From a virus, in IMG/VR virus record IMGVR_UViG_3300010389_000119, positions 1-25,523 of that record: a DNA stretch of 25,523 nucleotides; one strand, given 5' to 3'. Every line of letters starts with the position of its first letter. The first letter of the stretch is position 1. The translations under genes and the position numbers were made by a program. Shown piece after piece: positions 6,709 to 22,614 of the stretch. The notes below the pieces were generated by a model, which saw only the letters and a program-made list of their open reading frames with translations, was not told the origin of the DNA and did no database searches.

Positions 6709-6738
6709 AAAACAATCAACAATCCTTCCAGCGAAGAA

Positions 6739-6777
6739 CCCGCTGGGTCATCATAGAGAACAAGGTGACCCAGCGGG
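6739..6777 (+). promoter_or_regulatory. Perfect 12-bp stem-loop after the major tail protein gene
   Basis: CCCGCTGGGTCA (6739-6750) pairs with TGACCCAGCGGG (6766-6777) around a 15-nt loop in the 108-nt gap before the chaperone gene. No T-run follows, so it is more likely an RNase barrier, attenuator or weak terminator than a strong one. It would help keep tail-tube mRNA above chaperone mRNA. Confidence 0.55.
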
Positions 6778-6816
6778 AACCCTAAGGAAGTAAGACCCTA
6801 AACAAAAGGAAAAACA

Positions 6817-7170
6817 ATGACCCAAAACAAAGCAGCGGCAATCAAAGCCGACGGAGCAAAAATCACTCTAACCAGCGGAAGCGTCATGCAAATCAAGTAC
6901 GACATGGCAGCATTAATCGAAGTGGAAAAAGAACACGGTTCAGTTACAGCTCTCTACGAGAAACTCAAAGAAGGCGACAAAGGACCAATCTTCGGAACTC
7001 TAGCTCATGCATTATGGGCGGGAACAAATCGAAAGATGCCATTCGAGGCGTTTGTTAATCTACTAAGCACTCACTCAATCGAGGAGTACTCTAACGCATT
7101 CGCAGAAGCAATCCAGGAAGCGTTCCCAGTTGCAGAAGAATCCGACTCGGGAAAAGCGGAGACCGATTAG
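6817..7170 (+). CDS. Tail assembly chaperone, unshifted product (gpG-like)
   Basis: This 117-aa protein lies between the major tail and tape measure genes, where siphophages encode the G/GT pair that coats the tape measure protein during tail assembly. It has an N-terminal beta part (AKITLTSGSVMQIKYD) and a helical part (IEVEKEHGSVTALYEKL, FGTLAHALWAG), typical of these chaperones. The last codons contain the slippery heptamer at 7149-7155; unshifted ribosomes stop at TAG 7168-7170. Confidence 0.87.
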   Translation: MTQNKAAAIKADGAKITLTSGSVMQIKYDMAALIEVEKEHGSVTALYEKLKEGDKGPIFGTLAHALWAGTNRKMPFEAFVNLLSTHSIEEYSNAFAEAIQEAFPVAEESDSGKAETD

Positions 7171-7187
7171 GAAGTGGCGACCTAATC
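7149..7187 (+). promoter_or_regulatory. Programmed -1 ribosomal frameshift site (slippery heptamer plus stem-loop)
   Basis: G GGA AAA at 7149-7155 is in the correct phase for X XXY YYZ slippage (zero-frame codons TCG GGA AAA). After a 9-nt spacer, GATTAGG (7165-7171) pairs perfectly with CCTAATC (7181-7187) around a 9-nt loop, and the zero-frame TAG lies in the stem. A -1 slip enters the frame that runs to 7427. Heptamer, spacer and stem agree with the conserved lambda-type G/GT frameshift. Confidence 0.88.
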
Positions 7188-7427
7188 CAGTGGGACGAGT
7201 GGTACTACATCGCCACAGTTTTGTTCAATAGAACAGAAAAAGATTTCTGGAAGATGACTCCAGCACAGTTCTATTGGCTAACGGAAGTTCACGTCGAGTT
7301 AAATACTCCGGAAGAAGATAAAAAATCCCGAAGACGAAAAACAAAAAATCACTTCGACCCAGACAGACCGGAGAGCATTTACGGATTCGAACAGCTCTCC
7401 AAAATAAAACTCCCAGCAGGAAGGTAG
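7155..7427 (+). CDS. T extension of the tail assembly chaperone, made by -1 frameshift (gpGT-like)
   Basis: After slippage the next codon is AGC at 7155, and translation continues S-G-D-R-L-G-S-G-D-L-I-Q-W-D-E-W-Y-Y-I-A for 90 codons to TAG at 7425-7427. Joined to 113 residues from the upstream frame, this gives a protein of about 203 aa. The extension contains WKMTPAQFYWLTEVHVEL, a typical T-part stretch, then a basic linker (KSRRRKTKNH). An ATG-less TTG at 7221 could begin a shorter ORF, but it has no ribosome site. Only the fused form is expected to bind the tape measure protein. Confidence 0.85.
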   Translation, partial: SGDRLGSGDLIQWDEWYYIATVLFNRTEKDFWKMTPAQFYWLTEVHVELNTPEEDKKSRRRKTKNHFDPDRPESIYGFEQLSKIKLPAGR

Positions 7428-7434
7428 AAAACAG

Positions 7435-9501: not shown

Positions 9502-9502
9502 G

Positions 9503-9976
9503 ATGAGCAGACAAATCACAATCAACAGAGACAGCATCGGTCTCGAACCATTAATCCTTCACAATCCACAAAAAGGATTCTATCTATCGGACGAGTTTTC
9601 TCCAAGCTCTATCAGTTGGCAACGCTACGAGGCATCAACAAGTCCGTTCGTTAACGGAGAAAGAATCATCGCTCAAAGAAAAACCAACGATGAGACTATT
9701 TTCCGTTTGCATCTAGACGTTAACGGACTCAAATCAGAAGCAATCCTAAAAAGTAAAAATGAAATCTATCAAGAGAGATTCATAGAACTACACCAAGCTC
9801 TCTCTCAAAAACGGTTCGATTATACCGTCGAGTGGGAAGGAATAGTAGAAGTTTACAACGCAGCAGGAGCAGCAGATATCGAAAAAGTTCTCGACCCAGT
9901 TCTCACTCGTGCAGGGTGGGTTTCATTCGTCATCAGCATACCAACAAGTCCATTCCTAACAAATACAGGAGAATAA
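9503..9976 (+). CDS. Distal tail-like minor tail protein
   Basis: This 157-aa protein starts 1 nt after the tape measure stop. It occupies the distal-tail (Dit) position between the tape measure and tail-tip genes. The sequence is beta-rich (FRLHLDVNG, DYTVEWEGIVEVYNA, GWVSFVISIPTSPF) with one central helix (YQERFIELHQALSQ). It is shorter than typical Dit proteins and I see no galectin-like C-terminal domain, so it may represent only the ring-forming part. Assignment is by order and general pattern. Confidence 0.6.
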   Translation: MSRQITINRDSIGLEPLILHNPQKGFYLSDEFSPSSISWQRYEASTSPFVNGERIIAQRKTNDETIFRLHLDVNGLKSEAILKSKNEIYQERFIELHQALSQKRFDYTVEWEGIVEVYNAAGAADIEKVLDPVLTRAGWVSFVISIPTSPFLTNTGE

Positions 9977-9983
9977 TAAGAAA

Positions 9984-10382
9984 ATGATAAATACAACATA
10001 CATCAACGGAATCCTCGACGACCTAATCCTCAACACGAGTGACCCACTTTACGTAGGTCTCTCGACTACCGAGCCATTATTAGACGAACTCGACCCAAGC
10101 GGATTCACAAATATCACAGAACCAGCAGCGGCGGACTACAGCCGAGCACCTCTCTATCAAGCAGACTGGGACGTTGCAATCGGAAGAACTAAAACAACAA
10201 TCAACGACATCGTGTTCTCAGCTCCAGTAGACGCGTGGGGAGTTGTTACACATATCGCCGTGTTCGACCAGACAAGCGGAGAGGTTATATTTACGTCGCC
10301 GTTAATCCAAACGGTTAATCTAACCGCAGGAGGAGACCAGCTAATCATTCCAGCCGGAACTCTAACAATCACCTTCCCGTAA
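9984..10382 (+). CDS. Minor tail / fibre-type protein of the LYVGLSTTEP family
   Basis: This is a 132-aa protein. The motif DPLYVGLSTTEP, then EPAAADYSRAP, INDIVFSAPVDAWGVVTHIAVFD and a final IIPAGTLTITF strand form a recognisable small phage tail family that often lies with fibre or tip genes in Gram-positive phages. The role is structural, probably at the tail tip; the precise part is unknown. It sits between the Dit-like gene and the large tip protein in an uninterrupted late operon. Confidence 0.65.
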   Translation: MINTTYINGILDDLILNTSDPLYVGLSTTEPLLDELDPSGFTNITEPAAADYSRAPLYQADWDVAIGRTKTTINDIVFSAPVDAWGVVTHIAVFDQTSGEVIFTSPLIQTVNLTAGGDQLIIPAGTLTITFP

Positions 10383-10412
10383 AATAAAGCACTACACCGA
10401 AAGGAACATGAA

Positions 10413-12824
10413 ATGGCGTTCAACGTTGGAACAGCTCCAATCACACAGCCGACGGTTGCAGCCGGATATCTAAGATATACAAATCTCACGTTCCAAACAG
10501 CATCACCGGAAGAAATACAACAGCCGACGGTTGCAGCCGGATATCTAAGATATACAAATCTCACGTTCCAAACAGCATCACCGGAAGAAATACAACAGCC
10601 GACGGTTGCAGCCGGATATCTAAGATATACAAATCTCACGTTCCAAACAGCATCACCGGAAGAAATACAACAGCCGACGGTTGCAGCCGGATATCTAAGA
10701 TATACAAATCTCACGTTCCAAACAGCATCACCTTACACAATCGAGCAAAGCTCCAGAATATACTCGTTTCTTTACTTCCGTCCGTTTATACCAAGCAACG
10801 CGAATCTCCTCCCACTATACCAAGTCACGCCGAAGTTTTCCGGTTTACCGATATCATTTGTTAACCCTACAGACGATGGCTTCCCAGGTAAAGACATTCC
10901 AAGCGGTGGAGGACCACAGACAGAAACAAAGCTAATGACTACCGAGTCATTTATACCAGGTACAAACGAGCAAGGAGTACCAAATCCAGACATCGTCTCA
11001 GAGTGGGGAAAGCTATACACAGTCATCGACAAGCAAGACGTTAGCAGTTTCAGAGACGCAGAGCCAATCATTACAACAATATCATGGTCGATGGTTGGCA
11101 ACTACGAAACTCTCGAAGTTATCATTCCAGGAGCAACATCGTTCGACACAAAAGAAACGCTTCCCTGGCTATACAGCGGAGCTCAGATTGAAATCTATAA
11201 AGAAAAAGACAACGCGTTCGACATTTTATGGAGAGGAAGCATCAACGGGTGGACCTTCGAGGACAACGGACTCGGACTCAGAATCACAGCCAACGGGCTT
11301 CTCTACGACCTAACGTATCAGGTTGCAACACCGCAAAAAGGTTTTGACTCAAGTAAAGACGTAGCTCACTACATTAGACAAATCGTAAACGAAGGCAAAC
11401 AAAAGTGGAACTACATGCCAGCACAAACGGTCGGAAGCACAACAAGCACGAAAGCGAACTACGAGTCCGAGTTGGAATACATAAAAAAACTCGGCGAAGA
11501 ATCGTCCACAACTTTATGGGTGAATGAGTACGATATACCGAAAATCGTTGCAAAAGACGAGCGACTCAATACAAACATTCTCGGAGAACCCATAAACCCG
11601 TCAATCTCTCTTCCAAATAAAACAGTTCGTTATCTAAACGGGCAAGACGGGCTCGTGGATAATCTATCCCTCGATGAGAAATCAGAAGCGAACGTAATCT
11701 ATAAAACCGGTAGTTATCCGGCAGGCGGAAGATGGGTCAACTGGAACTTCCCTCAAATCGAGGGAGGAACATACAATCAAAGCATGATGAATCTCTATTA
11801 CTCAATCATCATCAGCAACATTCCTCCCGAATCTCTCACCAGCGAAGTCGTCCTCGCGTTCCCGCTTCCAGATATCGACGACAAAATCAAAGTAGGAACA
11901 AGCGACACAGACACGATGAAAATATCAGAGTTTCCCTCGACACTCGACAAGGGAGGACCAGTTGTTTACGACGAACCATTCTCCAGTAGGTATGACCGGG
12001 AAAGACTCCCAGCAGTTAACGTGGTTTTTATCGAGCAAGACGGAACGGAATCCGATATCGACATCAGGAAAGACGAGCCGCCAGTTAACAACCCAAACGG
12101 AATCGTTACACTACAATATCTCATCGCGTGGTACATGCTAGGACCAGCGAGCTATTGGAGCATTCTCGCACAAAATAGGTACAACCAGTTCCCGTCACTC
12201 AGAACAGGACAAGTAGGAACATTCCAAGAATCAGATGCAGAAAATATCAGAACCATACAAAGGCAAAACGGTCTTCCAATCACCGGAGAAGTAGACATAA
12301 AAACGTGGTCAGTTTTATGCGGAAAAATCGACCTATCATCAGATGCGTGGATAGCTCCCGCAGTTATAAATCTACACCCAGACAGAGGAAGACTAAATGA
12401 AGTTTACGAAGATATCGGAATCGCAACAAAAACAATCGGTCAAGGGTTGCAGCTATCGCAAGAAGAGTATCAGTCCATTATCGAAAGCAATAAGCCAGTC
12501 GGAGGTCAAATAAATACAGCCATCACTCCGGCATGGCTTGGAGAAATAGAGCTCACGCTGTGTCCTCCAATCGTAGAGGGACAAGGTCAGTTCGGCAGCG
12601 GAGAAATATCTCGATTCGATATAAGACCTCGAGACATCATCGAGTTATGGTATCACCCGGGAAGTTATAAGTTCTATCTCGAAAGCGAATACCTTAGGTA
12701 CCTAGACCTCTTCATAACAAGGGTAGAGTGGGACCTCTCAGCCGAGCCAAAAGTCAAGCTCCAGGTTGCAACAAAGCCATTCGACTACACAGAACTCGTA
12801 GAATATATTTACCCTGACCTCTAG
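10413..12824 (+). CDS. Large tail-tip protein with N-terminal tandem repeats and a peptidoglycan-binding-like segment
   Basis: This 803-aa protein is last in the tail operon, where siphophages encode the tail-associated tip or baseplate protein. Residues 12-107 are four copies (the last partial) of a 25-residue unit starting QPTVAAGYLRYTNLTFQ. Residues about 170-400 hold a beta-rich tip region (YETLEVIIPGATSFD, WRGSINGWTFEDNGLGLRI, GLLYDLTYQ). Residues about 590-637 resemble a PG_binding_1 fold (SLRTGQVGTFQ, NIRTIQRQNGLPITGEVD, KTWSVLCG). The C-terminus (RDIIELWYHPG, YLDLFITRVEWDLSAEPKVK) is like the ends of actinophage minor tail proteins. It probably contacts the cell wall during adsorption. 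A strong terminator follows. Confidence 0.75.
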   Translation: MAFNVGTAPITQPTVAAGYLRYTNLTFQTASPEEIQQPTVAAGYLRYTNLTFQTASPEEIQQPTVAAGYLRYTNLTFQTASPEEIQQPTVAAGYLRYTNLTFQTASPYTIEQSSRIYSFLYFRPFIPSNANLLPLYQVTPKFSGLPISFVNPTDDGFPGKDIPSGGGPQTETKLMTTESFIPGTNEQGVPNPDIVSEWGKLYTVIDKQDVSSFRDAEPIITTISWSMVGNYETLEVIIPGATSFDTKETLPWLYSGAQIEIYKEKDNAFDILWRGSINGWTFEDNGLGLRITANGLLYDLTYQVATPQKGFDSSKDVAHYIRQIVNEGKQKWNYMPAQTVGSTTSTKANYESELEYIKKLGEESSTTLWVNEYDIPKIVAKDERLNTNILGEPINPSISLPNKTVRYLNGQDGLVDNLSLDEKSEANVIYKTGSYPAGGRWVNWNFPQIEGGTYNQSMMNLYYSIIISNIPPESLTSEVVLAFPLPDIDDKIKVGTSDTDTMKISEFPSTLDKGGPVVYDEPFSSRYDRERLPAVNVVFIEQDGTESDIDIRKDEPPVNNPNGIVTLQYLIAWYMLGPASYWSILAQNRYNQFPSLRTGQVGTFQESDAENIRTIQRQNGLPITGEVDIKTWSVLCGKIDLSSDAWIAPAVINLHPDRGRLNEVYEDIGIATKTIGQGLQLSQEEYQSIIESNKPVGGQINTAITPAWLGEIELTLCPPIVEGQGQFGSGEISRFDIRPRDIIELWYHPGSYKFYLESEYLRYLDLFITRVEWDLSAEPKVKLQVATKPFDYTELVEYIYPDL
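10446..10732 (+). repeat. In-frame tandem repeat: three exact 75-bp units plus a 62-bp partial fourth
   Basis: Units start at 10446, 10521, 10596 and 10671, each beginning CAGCCGACGGTTGCAGCC. The three complete units are identical at DNA level by eye, and the fourth is identical over 62 bases before diverging at 10733. The period is 25 codons, so copy-number change keeps the frame. Perfect DNA identity implies recent expansion or ongoing homogenisation. Confidence 0.95.
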
Positions 12825-12837
12825 AATAAATCTATAC

Positions 12838-12868
12838 AAAAAGGCACTCCACAAAGGGGTGCCTTTTT
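12838..12868 (+). terminator. Rho-independent terminator ending the late operon
   Basis: AAAAAGGCACTCC (12838-12850) and GGGGTGCCTTTTT (12856-12868) form a 13-bp stem with one wobble pair and a 5-nt ACAAA loop, ending in a T5 tract. It lies 13 nt after the tail-tip stop and separates late transcription from the early region. Confidence 0.92.
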
Positions 12869-12874
12869 ATTTAT

Positions 12875-12945
12875 AAAAAGTTTCCGAAAATCTAGTTAGG
12901 GTGCCGATAATATAATCAGCAAATCGCTACTCAAAAAAGGACAGG
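12875..12945 (+). promoter_or_regulatory. Promoter-leader motif, copy A (nuclease-sigma operon)
   Basis: It contains AAAAAGTTTCCG, then AGGGTGCCGATA and a TATAAT-like hexamer at 12911-12916. AAGTTTCCG and GGGTGCCGATA are shared with the copies at about 19745 and 20211. No TTGACA lies 17 bp upstream of the -10. The leader hairpin seen in the other copies is reduced to AGC/GCT. It drives the operon that encodes the sigma factor, so autoregulation is possible. Confidence 0.65.
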
Positions 12946-12948
12946 CTA

Positions 12949-13593
12949 ATGCTAACAAGAAACGAAGCGTATCGAAAAAACGCTCATAAAGAAAATCTCG
13001 CCGTAGAAGTTTTCGAGGACTTCCTAAAAAGCAAAATAAAACTAGACTACGAAACGGTAGAGGACTATTTGCAGAACTGGCTGTACGGAGATATCAAGCT
13101 CGAAAATAATCGGTATATCGAAATCAAAGGTCAGCCAATAAATCCGAAAAAATATAACGGACTCAACTTCGTAGAGGTTGCAGAAAAAACTCAGAATCCA
13201 AAGCATGCCGACGGTTGCAGTAAGCTATCAGAAATCCTCGAAAGAGATATAAGCACAATCAAAGTTCGCAACAAAATAACAAACACAGTCGAACAGTTAG
13301 GAACTCCGCAGTTTCTAAATATCGCCATTTCTAGTTTATACAACGGCACCTCGTATGCTTACGTTAATCATAGCGAAGAAATCGTATATCTATACTCAGC
13401 AAAGAAACTCCTCAGTCTAATAAAAGAATCGATTAATACAAAAGGCATGACTCAAGGAGCAGGTCGAACTCATATCGACACACTCGGAGTTCAGGTTCCA
13501 ATCCCAGTCGCTATCTGGCAAAAAGAAAACGGCGAGTGGAAGTTCATCGGTTCAGGAAACGAGAGTGCAATATTGGAGGCGTTAACATGCTAA
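12949..13593 (+). CDS. PD-(D/E)XK nuclease-like protein
   Basis: This is a 214-aa protein, first gene after the late terminator. A restriction-endonuclease-like core is visible: Asp48 in WLYGDIK, then YIEIKGQP with Glu58-Ile-Lys60, a D-x9-E-x-K spacing typical of PD-(D/E)XK enzymes, preceded by helices that include AVEVFEDFLKSK. The C-terminal half (IVYLYSAKKLLSLIKE, GVQVPIPVAIW) is not recognised. Roles could include host DNA breakdown or processing of phage DNA; none is proved. Its end overlaps the sigma gene start by 7 nt (ATGCTAA), so the two are translationally coupled. Confidence 0.5.
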   Translation: MLTRNEAYRKNAHKENLAVEVFEDFLKSKIKLDYETVEDYLQNWLYGDIKLENNRYIEIKGQPINPKKYNGLNFVEVAEKTQNPKHADGCSKLSEILERDISTIKVRNKITNTVEQLGTPQFLNIAISSLYNGTSYAYVNHSEEIVYLYSAKKLLSLIKESINTKGMTQGAGRTHIDTLGVQVPIPVAIWQKENGEWKFIGSGNESAILEALTC

Positions 13594-14297
13594 ATCCTAA
13601 AGAGAAAGAAAAACTAATCTCAGACCATATCGGGCTCGCCAAATCTCTCGCGAAGAAACATCGTCAGTTCGAGACTACTGACCGTCCCAACTACGAAGAA
13701 AGAGAAGCCGAAGCGTTTCTCGCATTAGCAGAAGCAGCTTCTCACTATAATCCAGACATCGGACCATTCAGTACGTACGCAACTAAGGTAATAAAAAGCC
13801 AGCTAATCCGAGCAGATAGAAAATATCTCTTCCCGATGAGGGTTTCCGATAATACACACAAAATCCTCAGAGATATCAGAAGAGAAGTTAACAACGGCGT
13901 AGAAGAAACTCCAGAAGCAGTAGCCGCCGCTCTCAAAATAAACATTAAAAAAATCGAAGAGGTGTGGAAATACTACAAGAAAGAAGTTATCCTACAGCCA
14001 AAACAAACCGAAGAAGAATCCGAATCTATTGCAGAAAAAATCCCATCAAGAGAATCGGTAGAAGATATCGTAGAAATAAAAATACAAAAAGAAAAAATCG
14101 CTCAAGCTCTTAATCAGTTAGATGACATTGAAAAACTAATCATCACTCATCGGTTCGGGTTTGCAACAGGAGAAGCAAAACTCTCAAACGAAATCATCGA
14201 AGAGTTAAACATAAAAGAATCACAATATAAAATCAAAGAAGCAACCGCAATCGAAAAACTAAAAAACATTCTCGGTGATATAAATCCGAGCCGATAG
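13587..14297 (+). CDS. Phage-encoded sigma-70-family RNA polymerase sigma factor
   Basis: This is a 236-aa protein. The ATG at 13587 has GGAGG 9 nt upstream; a longer reading from 13536 would overlap the nuclease gene more and lacks a ribosome site. Region 2 is at residues about 14-76: HIGLAKSLAKKH, EAFLALAEAASHYNPDIG, FSTYATKVIKSQLIRADRK. A region 3-like helical part follows (PMRVSDNTHKILRDIRREV, EETPEAVAAALKI). Region 4 is at residues about 185-232: ALNQLDDIEKLIITHRFGF, SNEIIEELNIKESQYK, AIEKLKNIL. It would redirect host RNA polymerase, most plausibly to the repeated GGTGCCGATAGTATA promoters, one of which overlaps its own stop codon. Confidence 0.8.
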   Translation: MLNPKEKEKLISDHIGLAKSLAKKHRQFETTDRPNYEEREAEAFLALAEAASHYNPDIGPFSTYATKVIKSQLIRADRKYLFPMRVSDNTHKILRDIRREVNNGVEETPEAVAAALKINIKKIEEVWKYYKKEVILQPKQTEEESESIAEKIPSRESVEDIVEIKIQKEKIAQALNQLDDIEKLIITHRFGFATGEAKLSNEIIEELNIKESQYKIKEATAIEKLKNILGDINPSR

Positions 14298-14341
14298 TAT
14301 ATACAGAAGCAACACCGCTTCTCAAAACAAAGGAAAGAAAA
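14281..14341 (+). promoter_or_regulatory. Promoter-leader motif, copy B (replication-initiator gene)
   Basis: CCGATAGTATATACAGAAGC at 14291-14310 is followed by AACACC and GCTTCT, forming an AGAAGC/GCTTCT hairpin at the expected 5' end of the transcript, then an AAAGGAAAG ribosome site. The TAG inside GATAGT is the sigma gene stop codon. The upstream GGGTG is changed (ATCCGAG here). Confidence 0.65.
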
Positions 14342-14947
14342 ATGAAAATAATAAGGTCGCAAAAACCATCGGAGCACTATACAGTAATCCGAAACGATAT
14401 ACTCCGTGACGAATCCCTCTCGTTTCGAGCTAGAGGAATCCTAACATATATTCTCAGTAACGTAGACACTTGGCGAACAGACGCAACGACACTCTCAAAA
14501 ATCGGCGGAGAAGGTAGACAGGCAATCCAGACCGCCATCAACGAGCTAAAATCAGCTGGCTACATCGAGAGCAAAAAAGTTCAAGACCCACTCACCGGTA
14601 GGTGGACAACAGAAGTCACGGTCTACGATATACCAAAACACAAAAGAGAGAAATCAGAAGCTCTCGACACGGAGACCAGTATCGCAATCGAGATGGTTCG
14701 TGATATCTGGGAGACGACTAGTCATTCGGAGCAACCTCCAATCGCGGTCGTAAAAATCGTTGCAGCAGCAATCAAACGTGGAGAAGATAAAAAAGCATTA
14801 TCTAAAGCTCTAGATAAGGTGGCAAAATCAGGTAAAACACTCACGGCGGAAAGATTGCAAAACGCTCTAAATAATAGAATAATCATAAAAGGAAAACTCG
14901 CAGCCGATGCTCGAGTAGATTGGAACGCAATCGGAGAGGAGCTATAA
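14342..14947 (+). CDS. Winged-helix replication-initiator-like protein
   Basis: This is a 201-aa protein. Residues about 12-100 form a typical winged-helix module of phage/plasmid replication proteins: YTVIRNDILRDESLSFRARG, ILTYILSNVDTW, then SKIGGEGRQAIQTAINELKSAGYIE and a wing ending WTTEVTVYD. The C-terminal part is helical (IAVVKIVAAAIKRGEDKKAL, ALDKVAKSGKTLTAERLQNAL). No polymerase, primase or helicase is encoded, so it may bind the phage origin and recruit the host replisome. A transcriptional regulator is the alternative. It has its own promoter copy and an AAAGGAAAG site. Confidence 0.65.
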   Translation: MKIIRSQKPSEHYTVIRNDILRDESLSFRARGILTYILSNVDTWRTDATTLSKIGGEGRQAIQTAINELKSAGYIESKKVQDPLTGRWTTEVTVYDIPKHKREKSEALDTETSIAIEMVRDIWETTSHSEQPPIAVVKIVAAAIKRGEDKKALSKALDKVAKSGKTLTAERLQNALNNRIIIKGKLAADARVDWNAIGEEL

Positions 14948-14948
14948 A

Positions 14949-15158
14949 GTGAACACCCATAAGTATAAATCAAACGCCGCACAATCATACTTCACAAACG
15001 CGTGCTCAACAGGAAAACGTTGTTATCTAACAAAAAGCATCGCGAGACAAGCAGCAAAACAAATCAAGAAAAACGGAGCAGACAAACTCATTCCGTACGA
15101 TTGCAGCATTTGCAATCAGATTCATCTCGCACACCCAAAAAGAAATCCGGAAAAATAG
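14949..15158 (+). CDS. Small zinc-ribbon-like protein
   Basis: This is a 69-aa basic protein with a GTG start at 14949, 1 nt after the previous stop. Cysteines and histidines occur as C-S-T-G-K-R-C near residue 20 and Y-D-C-S-I-C-N-Q-I-H-L-A-H near residues 50-62, a pattern I recall in small actinobacterial and phage proteins whose function is unknown. It probably binds a metal ion. It is translationally coupled to the replication-initiator-like gene. Confidence 0.6.
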   Translation: MNTHKYKSNAAQSYFTNACSTGKRCYLTKSIARQAAKQIKKNGADKLIPYDCSICNQIHLAHPKRNPEK

Positions 15159-15220
15159 GATTAGGGTGCCGATAGTATATACAGAAGCAACACCGCTTCT
15201 CAAAACAAAGGAAAAATATC
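15145..15220 (+). promoter_or_regulatory. Promoter-leader motif, copy C
   Basis: It has AAATCCGGAAAAATAGG, then GGGTGCCGATAGTATATAC (15164-15182), an AGAAGC-AACACC-GCTTCT hairpin and AAAGGAAAA before the ATG at 15221. It matches copy B from GCCGATAG through the ribosome site. Confidence 0.7.
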
Positions 15221-15595
15221 ATGAGTAACAGCATCACCGCCATCGCAGCCGCAGCATTAGCAATCGGAATCAGTACGTACGGAATAGAAGCATATAAAGA
15301 CGCTCAAGAAGTAGCAAATCAACTCGGCAGCGTTGAAATAAATACAATCAAAAAAGCGTACGGAATCAGTGACCTAGTTTATAACTGCGTAGAAGAGGCG
15401 TTCAAGAAAGAAAACAAAAACAACGTCGATGACCTAGTAGCATTCATCGAGCTAGAGGCACAGACAGCCGGAACCGAAAACGAAACACAACTCGCAGCGG
15501 AAATCAAAGCCTGCGTATATCAAGACCCGTTCGGTTGGCACGGTACGGAGAACGAGTGGGCAATCGAACTCCTAGACACGGAATCGTGGGAATAG
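15221..15595 (+). CDS. Hypothetical protein with N-terminal hydrophobic segment
   Basis: I do not recognise this 124-aa protein. Residues 5-22 (ITAIAAAALAIGISTYGI) could be a membrane anchor or signal-like helix without a clear cleavage motif. The rest is acidic and mostly helical (VEINTIKKAYGISDLV, DDLVAFIELEAQTAG) with two Cys. The gene has its own promoter copy upstream, and its stop overlaps the next GTG start by one base. Confidence 0.6.
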   Translation: MSNSITAIAAAALAIGISTYGIEAYKDAQEVANQLGSVEINTIKKAYGISDLVYNCVEEAFKKENKNNVDDLVAFIELEAQTAGTENETQLAAEIKACVYQDPFGWHGTENEWAIELLDTESWE

Positions 15596-15873
15596 TGGAT
15601 AAAAATCTCAAAATAAAACTCGAAAAAATAAAACAGCTCGATGAGGAAAATATAATAATCCGAATCTCGTGGGTGGATAGGAAAACAAATAAAATCCTAA
15701 CCACCCACGAGCTTGTTTGTTTGCAAGAAGCAGTTCTCAAAAAAGAAGGCAGAGAGCAAATCATCGAGTACGCTAAAACGTTTCTACTAGCTATCGAGAG
15801 ACTCATAGTAGAAACGTTCGAATCAGACGACGAAGAAGAAATCGAAGAGTGGAGAAAAACACTTTTCTCCTAA
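15595..15873 (+). CDS. Hypothetical 92-aa charged protein
   Basis: I do not recognise this protein. I take the GTG at 15595, which overlaps the upstream TAG (TAGTG), rather than the start at 15535 inside the previous gene. The protein is rich in Lys, Glu and Ile with helical stretches (KLEKIKQLDEENIIIRISWV, GREQIIEYAKTFLLAIERLI) and a very acidic end before WRKTLFS. A near-perfect 17-bp inverted repeat sits inside the gene. TCTCCT-AA-AGGAGA at its 3' end overlaps the next ribosome site. Confidence 0.5.
   Translation: MDKNLKIKLEKIKQLDEENIIIRISWVDRKTNKILTTHELVCLQEAVLKKEGREQIIEYAKTFLLAIERLIVETFESDDEEEIEEWRKTLFS
15666..15711 (+). promoter_or_regulatory. Intragenic 17-bp inverted repeat (possible attenuator)
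   Basis: CTCGTGGGTGGATAGGA (15666-15682) pairs with TCCTAACCACCCACGAG (15695-15711) apart from one A-A mismatch, around a 12-nt A-rich loop. A T-rich tract (CTTGTTTGTTTG) follows. It lies inside a coding region and looks like a terminator or attenuator. Which function it serves is not shown by sequence alone. Confidence 0.6.
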
Positions 15874-15884
15874 AGGAGACAATC

Positions 15885-16172
15885 ATGGAAGATATCACGA
15901 AAAAACTAGATGAAGAAATCAAAGCCAGCAGGTTAAGAGAAATCGCTCAGGGTTCAGGACCAAAAGCCAGAGCAGCTCGCCACGCAATCAAACGAAAAGA
16001 CAATAAAAACAAGAACGTGTGTCCCGAAGGTCACCCATACAACGTCAAGAATACACTCTACAACGCCGTAGGAAGCCGCTACTGCCTTCGTTGTTTGCAA
16101 GACCGGCGAATCTATACAGACGAAAAGAAACAGGCTCAGAAAGCCATCAGCCGCCGTATAGAAAAGCTCTAA
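15885..16172 (+). CDS. Small basic zinc-finger/HNH-like protein
   Basis: This is a 95-aa protein with its ATG at 15885 after AAAGGAGA; the reading from 15849 overlaps the previous gene and lacks a ribosome site. The helical basic N-terminus (ASRLREIAQGSGPKARAARH) is followed by CPEGHPYNVKNT and YCLRCLQDRR, a C-P-x-GH / C-x-x-C metal-binding pattern also found in HNH-like and recombination-related phage proteins. Active-site residues for an HNH nuclease are not complete by eye. It lies 49 nt upstream of the methyltransferase pair. Confidence 0.5.
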   Translation: MEDITKKLDEEIKASRLREIAQGSGPKARAARHAIKRKDNKNKNVCPEGHPYNVKNTLYNAVGSRYCLRCLQDRRIYTDEKKQAQKAISRRIEKL

Positions 16173-16221
16173 CCAACGGCGAGAGCAACAATAAAAATCG
16201 AATCGGAATAAAAAGGAAATC

Positions 16222-17598
16222 ATGGAGAACCAACAACCACAAGTCGGAGAACAAGTTTACAACGTGCCAGTTTCCGCGTTAAGAGAATACAGGGATAATC
16301 CTAGAGTCGGAAACGTTGCAGCAATAGCGGAATCTCTAAAAACAAACGGGCAGTTCAGACCTATCGTCGTGTGGAGAGAAACACAAGAAATCCTCGCGGG
16401 AAATCACACCTGGAAAGCAGCGAAAGAACTCGGGTGGGAAACCATCAAGGTCACGTATCTAGAAAATCTCACAGAGGACCAGGCGAAAAGAATCGTTCTC
16501 GCAGATAATCGCTACGGAGAAATCGGTGGTTATAATAATAAAAAACTCGCGGAGTTGTTAGAGAGTCTCGGAACTCTAAACGGCACAGGGTACGATGCGG
16601 AATATCTAGACATTCTCATCTCAGGATTAGAGCCAGACGCTCCCGTAGCTCTAACAGACGAAGACGACGTTCCAGAACCACCGCAGCGTGAAAAAGCATA
16701 CATAAAAGAGGGACAAGTGTGGAGACTTGGAAATCAACATAAGCTCGTGTGCGGAGACGCTACAGACGAGGAAGTTTACAAAAAGGCACTCGCCGGGAAA
16801 CAGGTAGACCTCGTTCTCACAGACCCACCGTATAACGTTGCACTCTACGACAACATGAGTCCCGAAGAAGCTAAAATCCGCAAGAAAAGAAGTGACGGGT
16901 TAACAATCCAGAACGACGCGATGAGCGACTCGGAGTTCGATATCTTCCTAAATACAGTTTTCAGTCGCATGCTAGAGAACTCAAAACCAGGAGCACCAAT
17001 CTACGTGTTCCACCCGAGCTCCAGAACGGGAACGTTTCAGAGAGCAGTTGAAGAATCAGGGTGGCTCGCTAAGCAAATCCTAATCTGGGTGAAAGATAGA
17101 CTCGTTCTCAGCCGCCAGGATTATCATTGGCAACACGAGCCAATCCTCTACGGTTGGAAGCCAGGAGCAGCTCACTACTGGGAGGGCGGAAGAACGCAAA
17201 CAACAGTGGTCGACAAAGAGCCAGACTTCAACAGCATGAAGAAAGAAGACCTCCTCAAGTTTATAAAGGACCTCTATCGTCAATCATCTATCGTAAGAGA
17301 AAAAAGACCGGGACAAAATAAAGAGCACCCGACGATGAAGCCGGTCGAGTTGTTGAAAAGGTTAATAAATAGTAGTTCGCCGTATACAGGACTCGTTCTC
17401 GACCCATTCGGAGGTAGCGGAAGCACTCTAATCGCCGCACACGCTACCGGAAGAGTTGGAATCGTTATCGAGCTAGACCCTACGTACGCAGACGTCATCG
17501 CAAGAAGATTCCAGGAGCACACGGGAATCCTTCCAGTTAACGACGAAACAGGAGAACCTCACGACTTCACAAAACCAGTTCCAAAGGATAAAAAATAA
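16222..17598 (+). CDS. ParB-domain / beta-class DNA methyltransferase fusion, copy 1
   Basis: This is a 458-aa protein. Residues about 8-115 are a ParB/sulfiredoxin-like N-domain (REYRDNPRVGNVAAIAESL, PIVVWRETQEILAGNHTWKA, RIVLADNRYGE). The catalytic motif is DPPY at 201-204 (LVLTDPPYNV). The SAM-binding motif is DPFGGSGSTLIAAH from residue 394, so the order DPPY first, SAM motif last marks a beta-class N6-adenine or N4-cytosine enzyme. HPTMKPVELL precedes the SAM motif. ParB-MTase fusions are common in phages and are usually thought to protect phage DNA from restriction. A paralogue follows 5 nt downstream. The recognition site cannot be read from sequence. Confidence 0.9.
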   Translation: MENQQPQVGEQVYNVPVSALREYRDNPRVGNVAAIAESLKTNGQFRPIVVWRETQEILAGNHTWKAAKELGWETIKVTYLENLTEDQAKRIVLADNRYGEIGGYNNKKLAELLESLGTLNGTGYDAEYLDILISGLEPDAPVALTDEDDVPEPPQREKAYIKEGQVWRLGNQHKLVCGDATDEEVYKKALAGKQVDLVLTDPPYNVALYDNMSPEEAKIRKKRSDGLTIQNDAMSDSEFDIFLNTVFSRMLENSKPGAPIYVFHPSSRTGTFQRAVEESGWLAKQILIWVKDRLVLSRQDYHWQHEPILYGWKPGAAHYWEGGRTQTTVVDKEPDFNSMKKEDLLKFIKDLYRQSSIVREKRPGQNKEHPTMKPVELLKRLINSSSPYTGLVLDPFGGSGSTLIAAHATGRVGIVIELDPTYADVIARRFQEHTGILPVNDETGEPHDFTKPVPKDKK

Positions 17599-17603
17599 TC
17601 ATC

Positions 17604-18926
17604 ATGCATCAAGATAATACAATCCACGAAGTTTCAGTATATAATCTCAAAGAATACAGGGATAATCCTAGAGTCGGAAACGTTGCAGCAATAGCGGAAT
17701 CTCTAAAATCTAACGGGCAGTTCAGACCTATCGTCGTGTGGAAAGAAACGGGAGAAATCCTCGCGGGAAATCACACGTGGAAAGCAGCAAAAGAACTCGG
17801 GTGGGAAACCATCAACGTAACGTATATCGAAGGAATAACAGAGGACCAGGCGAAAAGAATCGTTCTCGCAGATAATCGGTACGGAGAAATCGGAACATAC
17901 AACAACAAAAAACTCGCGGAGTTGTTAGAGAGTCTCGAAGACCTATCGGGAACCGGGTACTCCGATGATTACCTTGACGACCTCATCTCAGGGCTAGACC
18001 CGGAACCAGTTGCAACACTCACAGACGAAGACGACGTTCCAGAAATACCACCTCTTCCATTAACTACAATCAAAGAGGGAGAGGTGTGGAAACTAGGAGA
18101 ACATCTACTCCTGTGCGGAGACGCTACTGACCCACTAAGTTATCAAACACTCATCGGAAACGAACAAGTCGACCTCGTTCTCACAGACCCACCGTATAAC
18201 GTAGCGTATCAAGGTGGCACAAAAGAACAGCTAACAATCCAAAACGACGCAATGAGAGAAGAAGACTTCGAGAAGTTTCTAAGCGAATCGTTTTCTAGGA
18301 TGCTAGAGAACTCAAAACCGGGAGCACCAATCTACGTGTTCCATACTAGCATTCACGGCGAGCTTTTCAGAAGGGCGTTCAGAAACTCAGGGTGGCTCCT
18401 AAAGCAAATCCTAATCTGGGTGAAAGATAGACTCGTTCTCAGCCGCCAGGATTATCATTGGCAACACGAGCCAATCCTCTACGGTTGGAAGCCAGGAGCA
18501 GCTCACTACTGGGAGGGCGGCTATACTCAATCAACAATCCAGAAAAAGGAAAAAGTAGATTTCTCAAAGCTAAAAAAAGAGGAGCTCCTCAAAATCATAG
18601 AGGAAGCATTTGCAACCTCTAGTATCCTAGAAGAAAAGCGACCATCAAGAAACGCCGAGCACCCGACGATGAAGCCGGTCGAGTTGCTAAAAAAGCTCAT
18701 AGATAACAGTTCGCCGTATAAGGGAGTAGTGCTAGACCCGTTCGCGGGTAGCGGTAGCACTCTCATCGCAGCTCACGCACTCGGAAGGCGAGCAGTTGTT
18801 ATCGAGTTAGACGCTCGGTACGCAGACGTCATCGCAAGAAGGTTCCAGGAACATACAGGCATTCTCCCGGTTAACCAGAAAACCGGAGAGCCACACGACT
18901 TCACAATCCAAACGAAAGCGACCTAA
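17604..18926 (+). CDS. ParB-domain / beta-class DNA methyltransferase fusion, copy 2
   Basis: This is a 440-aa tandem paralogue of the preceding gene with the same plan: ParB-like domain (KEYRDNPRVGNVAAIAESL), DPPY at 195-198, and DPFAGSGSTLIAAH from residue 378. Two DNA blocks are identical to copy 1: 58 bp (17651-17708 versus 16284-16341) and 119 bp (18402-18520 versus 17071-17189). The rest has diverged, mostly after DPPY (a shorter insert) and between residues about 310-350. Different specificity after duplication, or dosage, are both possible. It is coupled to copy 1 by a 5-nt gap. Confidence 0.9.
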   Translation: MHQDNTIHEVSVYNLKEYRDNPRVGNVAAIAESLKSNGQFRPIVVWKETGEILAGNHTWKAAKELGWETINVTYIEGITEDQAKRIVLADNRYGEIGTYNNKKLAELLESLEDLSGTGYSDDYLDDLISGLDPEPVATLTDEDDVPEIPPLPLTTIKEGEVWKLGEHLLLCGDATDPLSYQTLIGNEQVDLVLTDPPYNVAYQGGTKEQLTIQNDAMREEDFEKFLSESFSRMLENSKPGAPIYVFHTSIHGELFRRAFRNSGWLLKQILIWVKDRLVLSRQDYHWQHEPILYGWKPGAAHYWEGGYTQSTIQKKEKVDFSKLKKEELLKIIEEAFATSSILEEKRPSRNAEHPTMKPVELLKKLIDNSSPYKGVVLDPFAGSGSTLIAAHALGRRAVVIELDARYADVIARRFQEHTGILPVNQKTGEPHDFTIQTKAT

Positions 18927-18942
18927 GAAAAGGGGGTATAAC

Positions 18943-19485
18943 ATGCCAAGAAAAACAATCCTAACTCCAGACAAAGCAAAACGTATCGCGGACCTCATAG
19001 CGGCAGGGAATGACCAGGAGACCGCAGCTCAGGCAGCAGGCATCAGTAAGAGCACTCACTACTCGTGGCTCTCTCGAGGTCGGTTAGAGAGAGAACGCTT
19101 GGAAGCGTTGGAAAACCAGGAAGACCAGGAGAGCACGGAAGAGATAGAGCCAGAGGAATCCGAGAGACCATTCGTGGAATATCTGGACGCCATAGAGAAG
19201 GCTCTCGCGGAAGCGGAAGCAGGACTCGTTCTCCATATCAGGACCGCAGCAAAAGAGCCGAGAACGTGGCAGGCAGCGGCGTGGCTTCTAACTCACGGAC
19301 CAGCGAGGCAGAAGTGGAAGGACGTTAATCGGACGGAAATATCAGGACCGGACGGAAAACCTATCCAGTCAGAGACGAAGAGCCTGGCGTTATCAGAGCA
19401 GGAAATCATCAAGCTAGCAGACGAGATTCTCGGTCTCGACGTTGCAGCAGAAGATGAGAACGTTTCCTCAGGGGATAGCCGGTAA
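18943..19485 (+). CDS. Terminase small subunit-like helix-turn-helix protein
   Basis: This is a 180-aa protein. The N-terminus has a classical HTH (AKRIADLIAAGNDQETAAQA, then GISKSTHYSWLSRGR), followed by a Glu-rich linker and a helical part (FVEYLDAIEKALAEAEAGLV) with a WLLTHGP...WKDVNRTEISGPDG signature known from terminase small subunits of Gram-positive phages. The C-terminus (LALSEQEIIKLADEIL) may bind TerL. It lies about 3.5 kb before TerL, separated by the accessory cassettes and lysis genes, which is unusual. It follows the methyltransferase pair with a 16-nt gap and a GGGGGT site. Confidence 0.75.
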   Translation: MPRKTILTPDKAKRIADLIAAGNDQETAAQAAGISKSTHYSWLSRGRLERERLEALENQEDQESTEEIEPEESERPFVEYLDAIEKALAEAEAGLVLHIRTAAKEPRTWQAAAWLLTHGPARQKWKDVNRTEISGPDGKPIQSETKSLALSEQEIIKLADEILGLDVAAEDENVSSGDSR

Positions 19486-19504
19486 TCCGGAGCACCGTGC
19501 GAAC

Positions 19505-19544
19505 CTCAGAGAGACCTCCCTTCGGGGAGGTTTTCTCGTTTGCA
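19505..19544 (+). terminator. UUCG-loop terminator, copy 1
   Basis: ACCTCCC-TTCG-GGGAGGT followed by TTTTCTCGTTTGCA. Forty bases are identical in the copies at 20114-20153 and 20755-20794. It lies 19 nt after the TerS stop. The following part up to promoter D (19545-19741) holds one palindrome and AT-rich tracts; I see no gene in it. Confidence 0.88.
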
Positions 19545-19555
19545 CTCTAGCTCGG

Positions 19556-19573
19556 TGTCTACATTTGTAGACA
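19556..19573. promoter_or_regulatory. 18-bp palindrome, operator candidate
   Basis: TGTCTACA-TT-TGTAGACA has perfect 8-bp arms. The TACAnnTGTA core resembles operators of the BlaI/MecI/CopY repressor family. No repressor of that type is encoded here, so a host regulator would have to bind. It could also be an origin or recombination element. Confidence 0.45.
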
Positions 19574-19741
19574 AATCATCTCCGAAGACCAGAAACCGGA
19601 GAGCCGGAAAACCGTAAAACAGAATCCCGGTCGTTATAAGAAGTAACAATAAGAAGACTCATAGAACGTGATTAGTTTTTCTCAAATAGAAGAGTTTCAT
19701 TAGTGAGTAGTATAGCGTTGCAATCTCCAAAAAATAAAATA

Positions 19742-19821
19742 AAAAAGTTTCCGGAAAATAGAAAAGGGTGCCGATAGTATATACAGAAGCAAGAAGGCTT
19801 CCCAAACAAAGGAAAGAAAAC
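19742..19821 (+). promoter_or_regulatory. Promoter-leader motif, copy D
   Basis: AAAAAGTTTCCGG, GGGTGCCGATAGTATATAC, a GAAGC-AAGAAG-GCTTC hairpin and AAAGGAAAG before the ATG at 19822. The block 19742-19838, including the first codons, is identical to 20208-20304 over 97 bp. Confidence 0.72.
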
Positions 19822-20100
19822 ATGGAAACAATCACCGCCAGCACCTCTCGACTCCTAGAGATTATCTCAGAGCTAGACGTTGACAACTACTCGAGCGTGG
19901 ACGAAATCGAAGGACTCATCGCTCAGAGCTACGGAGAGGTTTTCTATACTGCCATCATCGAAGGAATCGCAGACGGCGAAGACCTTCACGGTAGCGACAT
20001 CGTTCGACTCATAGAAGACGAGGGAACAGCTAGAAACCTAATCGGAGCATTCGGAGATGAAATCTACGACCTATTCGAGAACGTGCTAAGAGTTGCATAA
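19822..20100 (+). CDS. Small, very acidic protein (cassette 1)
   Basis: I do not recognise this 92-aa protein. By my count it has 21 Asp/Glu against 4 Arg and no Lys, and is predicted mostly helical (SRLLEIISELDVDNYSS, IADGEDLHGSDIVRLIEDEG). Such a charge profile occurs in DNA-mimic anti-restriction and anti-CRISPR proteins, but also in many other small phage proteins, so this is only a hypothesis. The start at 19822 has AAAGGAAAG; an in-frame GTG at 19768 lies within the promoter motif. It has its own promoter and terminator. The first codons (METITA) are identical to those of the next cassette. Confidence 0.65.
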   Translation: METITASTSRLLEIISELDVDNYSSVDEIEGLIAQSYGEVFYTAIIEGIADGEDLHGSDIVRLIEDEGTARNLIGAFGDEIYDLFENVLRVA

Positions 20101-20113
20101 AACAAATCCATCA

Positions 20114-20153
20114 CTCAGAGAGACCTCCCTTCGGGGAGGTTTTCTCGTTTGCA
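20114..20153 (+). terminator. UUCG-loop terminator, copy 2
   Basis: Same 40 bases as copies 1 and 3, starting 14 nt after the stop of the acidic protein gene. Confidence 0.88.
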
Positions 20154-20207
20154 GGGGAAACAAGGTGAGCCGGAAATCCATAAAATAATCACCGGAAAAA
20201 AGTTTAT

Positions 20208-20287
20208 AAAAAGTTTCCGGAAAATAGAAAAGGGTGCCGATAGTATATACAGAAGCAAGAAGGCTTCCCAAACAAAGGAAAGAAAAC
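20208..20287 (+). promoter_or_regulatory. Promoter-leader motif, copy E
   Basis: Identical to copy D. An extra inverted pair, CCGGAAA (20192-20198) and TTTCCGG (20214-20220), lies at its upstream edge and could be an operator or activator site. Confidence 0.72.
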
Positions 20288-20566
20288 ATGGAAACAATCA
20301 CCGCATTAGAGACCTACGAAGACACTACAGTAGTCGTCATTCAGACAGACGCAGGCAAGAAACAGTGGCTCGAAATCAGAATCTACAGAGACGGCGGGTA
20401 CGCAGTTAACACGGTTCGCCGCTACATGGCAACCGAGCTCGCATCTCCTAGATTCTGGGTAGCGGACTCTCTCGAAATCCTAGAGTGCCACTCGGAGCTC
20501 TCTACCGAAGCCGCAGCAGATATCGACCTCGAGCAAGTTGCAATCGCAGCGATGCTCACTAAGTAA
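20288..20566 (+). CDS. Small acidic protein (cassette 2)
   Basis: I do not recognise this 92-aa protein. It starts METITA like its neighbour, then diverges completely: an N-terminal beta part ([20 protein letters not shown]) and a helical, acidic C-terminal half ([30 protein letters not shown]). The shared first six codons belong to the duplicated promoter-leader block, not to homology of the proteins. It is followed after 18 nt by a second, shorter gene in the same unit. Confidence 0.65.
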
Positions 20567-20584
20567 GAAAAAGGAAAAAGACCC

Positions 20585-20743
20585 ATGACCAAGTACGAGA
20601 CACTCTCAAGCAAAGAGCTCCAAGAGCTCATCATCATAACTCAAGAGCAAATGACAATCGAAGAACAACTCACCGGTATCCGTTCCCTCATGTGGGAGCT
20701 AAGGTTAGACCAGCTCCAAAAGGAACTCAAATCGCGAGGTTAA
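20585..20743 (+). CDS. 52-aa helical protein (cassette 2, second gene)
   Basis: The ATG at 20585 follows AAAGGAAAAAGACCC. The product is 52 aa, charged and probably helical ([33 protein letters not shown]), with Leu spacing suggesting a short coiled coil. It is unrecognised. It ends 11 nt before terminator copy 3. Confidence 0.55.
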
Positions 20744-20754
20744 TAGACCATCAC

Positions 20755-20794
20755 CTCAGAGAGACCTCCCTTCGGGGAGGTTTTCTCGTTTGCA
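20755..20794 (+). terminator. UUCG-loop terminator, copy 3
   Basis: Third identical 40-bp copy. It closes the second cassette before the lysis genes. Between it and 20945 I see no gene and no clear -35/-10 pair. Confidence 0.88.
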
Positions 20795-20944
20795 CTCTCA
20801 GTCGCAAACAGGTCTCAGAAGCCACGTGCGGCTCACAGGAAGACCGGGAAACCATCGGGGAACAGAGACGCCAAGCACAACAATCAAAGGCAGAGAGAAC
20901 AATATACCGGAATCGTTGTTTCAGACTAGAGCAAAGGAATATCG

Positions 20945-21163
20945 TTGGATTACCTATTAGCAGCCGGAGGAATAATACAAATCTATCTCACCGGAAAAAA
21001 GATAAGAGCCGGGTGGCTAGTTGGCATCGGGACCTCTATCGCGTGGGTGATATTTGCACTCCATACAAATCAGTTCGGGTTTATAATCTCCGCAGCAGTT
21101 TTCTCAGCAATCCACGTAAAAAACTACATCGCCTGGGGAACCAGGAAGCACGGCGAACAATAA
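20945..21163 (+). CDS. Small membrane protein upstream of endolysin, holin candidate
   Basis: This is a 72-aa protein with a TTG start at 20945 and AAAGGAA 5-6 nt before it. About three hydrophobic segments are visible: [30 protein letters not shown] and [15 protein letters not shown], with positive residues between them, and a polar C-terminus. The size and number of segments fit a class I holin, and it sits 11 nt before the endolysin start. It also vaguely resembles a small PnuC-like fold. Of the three membrane proteins in this genome it has the best position for the holin role. Confidence 0.65.
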
Positions 21164-21174
21164 GGGAGAAGGAC

Positions 21175-22614
21175 GTGCCAGACGAATACAAATCACTCAC
21201 AGAACACGGAATCGACGTAAGCCATTGGCAATCAACAATCGACTTCCAGAAATATAAAGAATCCGGCGGGAAGTTTGTTATCATCAAACAAGCCGGAGCA
21301 AACATCGGCAGACTTTACGAAGCTAGCAAAAGAGAAGAACATCTAAAGGGAGCACGGGAAGCCGGTCTCCAAATCGGATTCTATTACGTCGTTAACGGAT
21401 ATCTCGATATCATAGAACAAGCTAAGTTCTTCGTCGATAGCGTTAGACCATCGCTCAGAGAGAACGATATCGTAGCTCTAGACAACGAATCACTCGATAA
21501 GGGAATAGCATTCAATCCAGAACAAGCTCTCAAGTGGTTGCAGCACGTGGAAAAAGAGCTCAATCTAGTTCCATTCTACTATTCGTATCCAGCTCTCATT
21601 CGACGACAAAATCTCAGCAAAATCGCAAACCGTTATCCTTTATGGCTAGCCGCATTCAATAGAAACAACGGAACCACCGAAGGTGGCTACGAAAAGCATC
21701 TCACACAGTGGGACGAAGTAGCTATCTGGCAGTATAGTTCAAGAGGAAAAATAAACGGTTATAACTCTAACATCGACGTCAATCTCTCCAAGAAAGACGT
21801 TTTCTCAATCTACGGACACAAGACAAAACAGGAGAACCCAGTGAACACGGATAACAATAAAGACCACCCAGAGTATATCAAGTGGTTAGAACTAACAAAA
21901 CAAGCCACCGAGCACTTTATAAGTTGGCAAAACGACATCGCAAGAAAAACAGAAACGGAGGTTCCAAACGATACTCCCGTAGAAGTTGACAAGAGCTCAG
22001 AGGAGAAATCCAAAACGCATCTCCCGCTCAATCCACTTCCTAGAATCTCCAGCCACTACGGCATGAGAATCCACCCTATAACACGCAGGAAGAGGATGCA
22101 CAACGGAACAGACTTCGCGGTTGCAGCGGGGACTCCTATCTTCTCGATTGAAGACGGCATCGTTATCAAATCAAAAGTTAGCGGACACCCTACCGGTGGG
22201 TACGGAGAGTTCGTAGAAATCAAACACGCAAACGGAGTCTCCTCCTTGTACGCACACATGCTCAAAGGCAGCCGCACCGTTTCCGTCGGCGATATCGTAA
22301 AAGCCGGACAGAAAATCGGAGAAGTAGGGAGCACCGGGCAATCCACCGGGAATCATTTGCATCTCGAAATCAAAGTTAATCGCAAGTTCGTAGACCCGAT
22401 GAAATACCTAAAGAGCTTGGAAACGTTTGCAACATCGAACCCAGTATCCGAAGAGAATATTACATACATCGTAAAAAGGGGAGACACTCTCTCAAAAATA
22501 GCGAAGAAATATAATACCTCAGTCGCACGAATAGCTTCCGAAAACCGCATTAAAAATCCGAACGTTATTAGCGTAGGACAAGTTCTCAAAATATCAAAAC
22601 TCAAACGGAAGTAA
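21175..22614 (+). CDS. Endolysin: GH25 muramidase + M23 peptidase + LysM
   Basis: This is a 479-aa wall-degrading enzyme. I take the GTG at 21175 with GGGAGAAGG just upstream; the open frame reaching back to 20692 crosses the terminator and the holin gene and is not coding-like. Residues about 10-205 are GH25: GIDVSHWQ with Asp14, IVALDNES with Asp103/Glu105, and LWLAAFNR. A linker of about 70 residues follows. Residues about 290-405 are M23: [20 protein letters not shown] with His309 and Asp313, and HLHLEI with His394/His396. Residues about 430-476 are one LysM ([19 protein letters not shown]). It would cut both glycan and peptide bonds. No signal peptide is present, so release depends on a holin. 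Confidence 0.95.

Follow-up and report, generated by a model that had tools for sequence, protein, structure and literature searches.

The question raised by this locus is which RNA polymerase, i.e., that of the host or one directed by a phage sigma factor, reads a promoter-like sequence that occurs five times in one viral genome. The window, i.e., the whole stretch of DNA that was analyzed, has 25,523 nucleotides (IMG/VR record IMGVR_UViG_3300010389_000119, positions 1 to 25,523) and is a 25.5-kb phage contig in which a 55-base terminal repeat is present. The repeat (copies A to E) stands ahead of start codons, and the second gene downstream of copy A encodes a sigma-70-family protein. Repeated motifs are a tempting shortcut to the targets of phage sigma factors, and the genome is a small and clean test case for inferring targets from motifs. 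The original prediction held that the phage sigma factor reads the five copies as a regulon and feeds back on its own synthesis. The reading favored here, tentatively and with slightly less than even confidence, is that the five copies are early promoters first fired by the host polymerase, with a possible further role for the phage sigma factor; the sequence is as compatible with a normal start signal of the host as with a switch private to the phage.

The core of the repeat, GCCGATARTATAWWCAG (17 bases), starts at 12903 (A), 14290 (B), 15168 (C), 19770 (D), and 20236 (E), on the + strand only. Searched on both strands with up to three mismatches, it matched only these five sites. In 100 dinucleotide shuffles, the mean number of core matches was 0.24 and the maximum 2; five were reached in 0/100, so the five claimed copies are present as a real family. 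A matrix was built from copies A–D, with E omitted as a copy of D. The five copies scored 31.9–38.4, compared with 11.1 for the next site on the + strand and 13.4 for the best of 20 shuffles. A sixth copy was rejected, because the next matches (11.1 on the + strand and 10.5 on the − strand) were at shuffle level. The motif string first given, GGTGCCGATAGTATATAC, is exact in C, D, and E only, whereas A reads GGTGCCGATAATATAATC and B reads GAGCCGATAGTATATAC; the five sites stood as near-copies. The distance from core start to ATG was 46–53 bases in all five. From gap lists compiled by hand from the open reading frame (ORF) list, 5 of the 12 gaps longer than 40 bases hold the core, all in the non-structural region. 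The conserved pieces of the promoter-leader are CGATAGTAT, GGGT (4/5, i.e., A, C, D, and E, not B), and the hairpin arms. GTTTCCG recurs in 3/5 copies. GTTTCC is found in A, D, and E, where GTTT lies 15 bases before GGGT, as had been described. The copies are likely a family of promoters, with promoter activity predicted for them.

Copy A (12870..12919, + strand) was described by sequence reading and alignment. It has an A-rich block, GTTTCCG, GGGT, and the core GCCGATAATATAATCAG with a perfect TATAAT, followed by a leader without the GAAGC hairpin. Copies B (14290..14336, + strand) and C (15163..15214, + strand) consist of the core plus a hairpin leader by sequence, folding, and alignment, and are identical over 47 bases; the core of B overlaps the sigma stop codon. 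Copy D (19742..19838, + strand) is a promoter-leader of 97 bases that includes the first six codons of its gene, and by repeat search copy E (20208..20304, + strand) is identical to it across all 97 bases. A and E have 17 upstream bases in common (TTTATAAAAAGTTTCCG), and A and C have 14 (TTAGGGTGCCGATA). In gapped alignment, the similarity of the A leader to the B and C leaders extended past the core. The five copies are not independent and, in our judgement, represent about three versions. C and D keep 28 exact bases (AGGGTGCCGATAGTATATACAGAAGCAA) around the core, and this identity between flanks that have diverged by substitution and indel suggests constraint. A second TAGTAT (GAGTAGTATAG) was observed at 19702–19715, about 60 bases upstream of the copy D core, and is possibly a decayed promoter.

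The GAAGC...GCTTC hairpin described for B–E was borne out by folding. The leaders fold as AGAAGC/GCTTCT or GAAGC/GCTTC hairpins with z values of −3.3 (B), −2.2 (C), and −1.5 (D/E), and the leader of A folds little better than shuffles (z −0.9). Because the arms do not vary, covariation offers no means of telling an RNA hairpin from a DNA palindrome. If TARTAT is the −10 element, transcripts would begin at the hairpin or slightly within it. As a known case of such a structure, the T4 gene 32 mRNA is stabilized by a 5' hairpin (PMC8948821). Translation of the leader as an N-terminal extension was rejected as a common function, since in copy A a stop is reached after four codons and in C the frame does not match that of the gene; in D and E, reading can proceed without a stop from GTG across the leader and on into the gene.

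The sigma gene (13587..14297, + strand) encodes 236 amino acids, and the protein aligns to SigA chains over regions 2–4 (HMMER). In Pfam, sigma region 2 was above the cut-off (30.9 bits), and region 4 was below it (17.9 bits) but rightly placed. The NCBI sigma70-ECF superfamily model was passed with 59 bits (cut-off 42.9). The family assignment, with region 2 clear and region 4 weak, and the location of copy A upstream of the operon that holds the sigma gene were both part of the original prediction and were confirmed. Family scores favor a factor nearer to RpoD/SigA than to SigB/SigF, i.e., 63 bits for RpoD_Cterm (cut-off 354) vs 33.9 for SigBFG (cut-off 234.35), both under the cut-off. The proposed likeness of the copies to SigB/SigF promoters was not upheld either: B lacks both GTTT and GGGT, and C lacks GTTT. 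In the SigA alignment, WWIRQAIT is replaced by KVIKSQLI and TRERIRQ by KESQYKI. Structural work places the residues that recognize the −10 and −35 elements in these segments (regions 2.4 and 4.2), and with them altered the phage sigma should not prefer TTGACA promoters. A single-sequence AlphaFold model of the protein had a mean predicted local distance difference test score of 46.7 and was unusable.

The absence of a −35 element was the first point to be weighed. For the four best −10 candidates per copy, the best −35 match at a spacing of 15–19 was 4/6 in B, D, and E and 3/6 in A and C, and no TTGACA was found on the + strand. The observation in the original prediction was correct, but its use as an argument against the host housekeeping sigma factor failed. 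In mapped promoters of Mycobacterium tuberculosis, TANNNT was present at 73% of primary starts with no conserved −35; SRN preceded it in 49%, and CGN was found in 45% of the cases (PMC3898074). Because these promoters have no conserved −35, the housekeeping sigma factor of an actinobacterial host could read the copies even though they lack TTGACA. All five cores read CGA-TARTAT and fit CGN-TANNNT. On the + strand of 13 listed gaps (one widened to hold core B, and one of 10 bases included), this pattern occurs only at the five cores, i.e., five vs 1.4 expected at the genome rate. The housekeeping promoters of M. tuberculosis resemble the copies in having CGN-TANNNT without a conserved −35 (PMC3898074), whereas extra conserved blocks and a leader are present in the phage copies.

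Copy A was the only intergenic promoter candidate found ahead of the sigma gene. The sigma factor can act only once it has been synthesized, so at least copy A is probably read by the host polymerase. Two of the three core differences of copy A create its TATAAT (6/6; B–E reach 4/6 at best), which suits a dual promoter. In the promoter scan, a 9/12 sigma-70-like site was also found inside the tail gene (12781–12809), before the hairpin that precedes copy A. The motif was absent from the gaps of the structural genes, where a regulon dependent on the phage sigma would be expected to have it. The gap 20744..20944 (201 bases), which precedes the PnuC-like, lysin, terminase, and structural genes, had no motif and no TAnnnT on the + strand, a weak result as only about three TAnnnT were expected by estimate. 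The sigma factor may act at this late-gene gap instead, or read-through may reach the late genes.

On the favored reading, the copies would drive the early, i.e., non-structural, transcription units of the phage rightward from an actinobacterial-type −10, CGA-TARTAT. A standard leader would have been copied along with it, in B–E a hairpin at or near the 5' end of the RNA and then an A-rich ribosome site. At the onset of infection, the host housekeeping RNA polymerase would fire the copies, above all copy A with its perfect TATAAT. Transcription from copy A would lead to synthesis of the phage sigma factor, which would then redirect polymerase to the late genes or add to expression from B–E. 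The host is likely an actinobacterium, judged from protein matches: phages of Arthrobacter, Gordonia, Microbacterium, and Pontimonas were the top-ranked matches of the terminase, replication protein, capsid, and tape measure, at 25–41% identity.

Several points weigh against this reading. Copies B–E match TATAAT poorly, and the CGN-TANNNT count is that of a related sequence counted five times. The consensus itself is that of a distant, G+C-rich actinobacterium, in which CG is common, and it may not be that of the host. By record count, hosts other than actinobacteria lead, i.e., Salinibacter for the capsid (184/717) and Paenibacillus for the tape measure (85/509). GGGT and GTTTCCG recur beyond the needs of a plain host promoter, although recent copying could explain this. 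The altered segments of the sigma protein would fit a non-standard promoter class, without saying which. No other repeated promoter-like family was noticed in the window. In plain sigma-70 scoring, moreover, the best match of each copy lay on the − strand, with 9–10/12 vs 7–8/12 on the + strand.

The last point raises the possibility of a leftward promoter, in which the − strand of each copy reads TTGRGN, 16–18 bases, and TATACT or TATTAT, and antisense or short RNAs are made. The matches were TTGAGA-18-TATACT in B and C (10/12), TTGGGA-18-TATACT in D and E (9), and TTGAGT-16-TATTAT in A (9); that in copy C lies at 15203–15174. All five copies were among the 14 matches of the scan. However, the copies are related, so that few independent events are counted, and 14 exceeds the shuffled count by little (mean 9.2, standard deviation 3.4, in 12500–22000; in 1–12499, there were 10 matches vs 10.7). 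RNA from B or C would be antisense to + strand genes, and on the + side a ribosome site and an ATG follow directly in 5/5 copies. We regard leftward or bidirectional transcription as quite improbable. A slightly better case, although still improbable, can be made for an operator, i.e., a phage regulator that binds GCCGATA or the GAAGC-N6-GCTTC palindrome and switches B–E jointly, with the promoter read by the host sigma factor. GAAGC-N6-GCTTC is equally good as a DNA palindrome, its arms being kept and its loop changed without covariation, and the helix-turn-helix (HTH) protein encoded from 14342 is a possible binder. By eye, the viral contig L051 also shows GCCGATA-like blocks inside the spacers of TTGACA/TATAAT promoters. 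Against an operator, the palindrome is absent from A, only two loop versions exist and each was copied recently, and the HTH protein resembles a replication protein. Very improbable is a simple cassette duplication, in which the hairpin repeat, leader, and small gene were copied by recombination and conservation reflects age, not function. The 97-base identity of D and E with six codons and three near-identical hairpin repeats would agree with it. However, A, C, and D retain the core despite substitutions and indels in their flanks and loops, and each copy keeps its distance of 46–53 bases to the ATG.

The regulon of the original prediction is possible, though doubtful, in a form in which copy A is dual (host polymerase first, then phage sigma) and B–E depend on the phage sigma through an extended −10, GCCGATAGTATATAC. 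In its favor are the alignment of the sigma protein over regions 2–4, its −10 and −35 reading segments unlike those of SigA, the 28 exact bases kept by C and D despite differing flanks and loop, and the changes in A that make TATAAT. The copies are also the only repeated promoter-like family noticed, and their GGGT and GTTTCCG blocks recur. Precedents exist in two phages. Phages phiEco32 and 7-11 have, as here, a phage sigma gene and low-copy conserved promoters; the sigma of phiEco32 reads single-element tAATGTAtA promoters (PMC4331800, PMC8948821). In 7-11, positive feedback on the gene of a late sigma factor is proposed to come from a late promoter of that sigma, and a leader hairpin lies before the gene; its first transcription is presumed to come from host promoters (PMC8948821). 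What stood of the original prediction is the promoter-like family, the sigma-70-family gene, copy A upstream of its operon, and the lack of TTGACA on the + strand; the unusual segments of the sigma protein and the 7-11 precedent are also favorable to it. The step to a regulon was not supported, since the −35 argument and the SigB/SigF likeness fail and the sigma factor must first be made. In addition, the phage sigma has region 4 similarity, yet the five copies have no −35-like block in common at a constant distance; the structural genes have no motif upstream; and the core is compatible with a host −10.

The comparison with these two phages also shows differences. Their mapped phage-sigma promoters serve middle and late or late genes, whereas none of the five copies stands before structural genes (PMC4331800, PMC8948821). 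The phiEco32 sigma has no region 4 and is linked to a promoter without −35, and the 7-11 sigma has region 4 and a two-part promoter (PMC8948821). A study of 2015 had assigned a repeated TGATGT motif to the 7-11 sigma (PMC4331800). Mapping in 2022 gave the two-part promoter GTAAtg-(16)-aCTA instead (PMC8948821), and this disagreement between repeat-based prediction and mapping shows that the shortcut can err and counts against the regulon here. In the window, GTAATG-16-ACTA had no match with one mismatch allowed, and TAATGTATA had five matches with one mismatch (2.6 expected by chance), all of them away from the five cores.

A combined reading, rather unlikely in our estimate, has one promoter type with a host-readable copy A (TATAAT) and phage-sigma copies B–E with a 5' hairpin leader. 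It would form a self-amplifying sigma switch for most non-structural units. If the phage sigma does read B–E, the phage would have a positive-feedback switch of a very compact kind. If it does not, the phage would be an example of standardizing host-type promoters with a copied leader.

Other phages also have repeated leaders. The Gordonia phage Vardy has a published 50-bp motif with five intergenic copies, each a −10 plus a ribosome-site leader, as here (PMC9671010). The Vardy motif differs in sequence and has a perfect TATAAT. In the Vardy sequence, six TATAAT sites were found in the motif region, five with a common GAGACCC...GAAAGG leader. In the Pontimonas phage phiPsal1, which ranks first among the tape-measure relatives, two genes are each preceded by an exact copy of a 49-base leader that differs in sequence from copies A–E. 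By profile search, neither sigma region 2 nor region 4 was matched in Vardy, and the same was found for phiPsal1. These two actinophages, in which leaders are repeated and no sigma was detected, indicate that a phage sigma factor is not required for this design, in agreement with the favored reading. Cluster K mycobacteriophages have start-associated sequences (SAS) and extended SAS (ESAS), i.e., repeats just before non-structural start codons, some with inverted repeats, for which the authors suggest a role in translation (PMC3203893). The 13-bp cluster K SAS, GGGATAGGAGCCC, had no match in the window with up to two mismatches.

Relatives of the sigma gene and of the leader were searched in several collections, and neither a close relative of the phage sigma nor another genome with the leader was found in these searches. 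The sigma query gave no relative in IMG/VR or GTDB, where a peptide pattern matched 15 and 53 stretches, respectively, with 0 confirmed; against phage records, it gave seven matches at 25–28% identity. GGTGCCGATARTATA matched 65 IMG/VR stretches, and WWCAG followed in 0/65. A hairpin-leader pattern had 0 matches, GGTGCCGATARTATAWWCAG was found in two stretches of the GTDB collection (about chance level by estimate), and blastn of the leader against phages gave short weak matches only. For the tail protein and capsid queries, 0 matches were confirmed in IMG/VR. By tblastn, the terminase, methylase, and tape-measure relatives have one to three genes in common with the window, except for one contig (L138) with none. 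The sigma protein was matched in 0/20 terminase and methylase relatives, in a search without a positive control and among contigs of which many are fragments. Sigma region 2 was found in 0/43 tape-measure relatives and CCGATARTAT in 0/43 of their loci, the loci and not whole contigs being covered. The 56-kb contig L051 matches sigma region 2. On its minus strand, at about 3170–340, about ten TTGACA/TATAAT promoters were seen by eye in 3 kb, about six with a GCCGATA-like spacer block.

Every gene named in the layout of the window lies on the + strand. Portal, head, and tail genes reach 12824. The sigma operon (12949–14297) then begins with a gene for an unknown protein (12949..13593, + strand), for which profile searches gave no family, merely chance-level weak matches. 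After the sigma gene, the HTH protein gene (14342..14947, + strand) is replication-initiation/DnaD-like, just under the Pfam cut-off. Small genes follow, the first behind copy C (15221..15595, + strand) encoding an unknown protein by ORF list and family searches, and then an HNH-like gene. Next come two ParB-like/methylase genes and, up to 19485, a small terminase gene. By the same ORF list and family searches, two unknown proteins of 92 amino acids are encoded behind copies D (19822..20100, + strand) and E (20288..20566, + strand). They are followed by the PnuC-like, lysin, and large terminase genes. The gene after 20944 may encode PnuC, a candidate label taken from resemblance to an actinophage gene name.

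Terminator-like hairpins, as seen by eye, precede copies A, D, and E. A hairpin plus T-run (12833..12870, + strand) lies after the tail gene and directly before copy A. A hairpin repeat with a CTTCGG loop and a TTTT tail (19503..19548, + strand) lies upstream of copy D. The hairpins before A, D, and E are all absent from the list of the terminator scan, which gave 13 terminator-like sites vs 12.7 in shuffles (12500–22000) and 27 vs 15.7 (1–12499). The hairpin before copy D is one of three near-identical repeats with the CTTCGG loop (19503–19548, 20112–20157, and 20753–20798), which together with the D and E leaders frame the small genes as copyable cassettes. Duplication was also clear in the adjoining ParB-like/DNA methylase genes (16222–17598 and 17604–18926), with 76–94% DNA identity in blocks. 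A tandem 75-base unit was observed at 10445–10732 within a large gene of the tail region.

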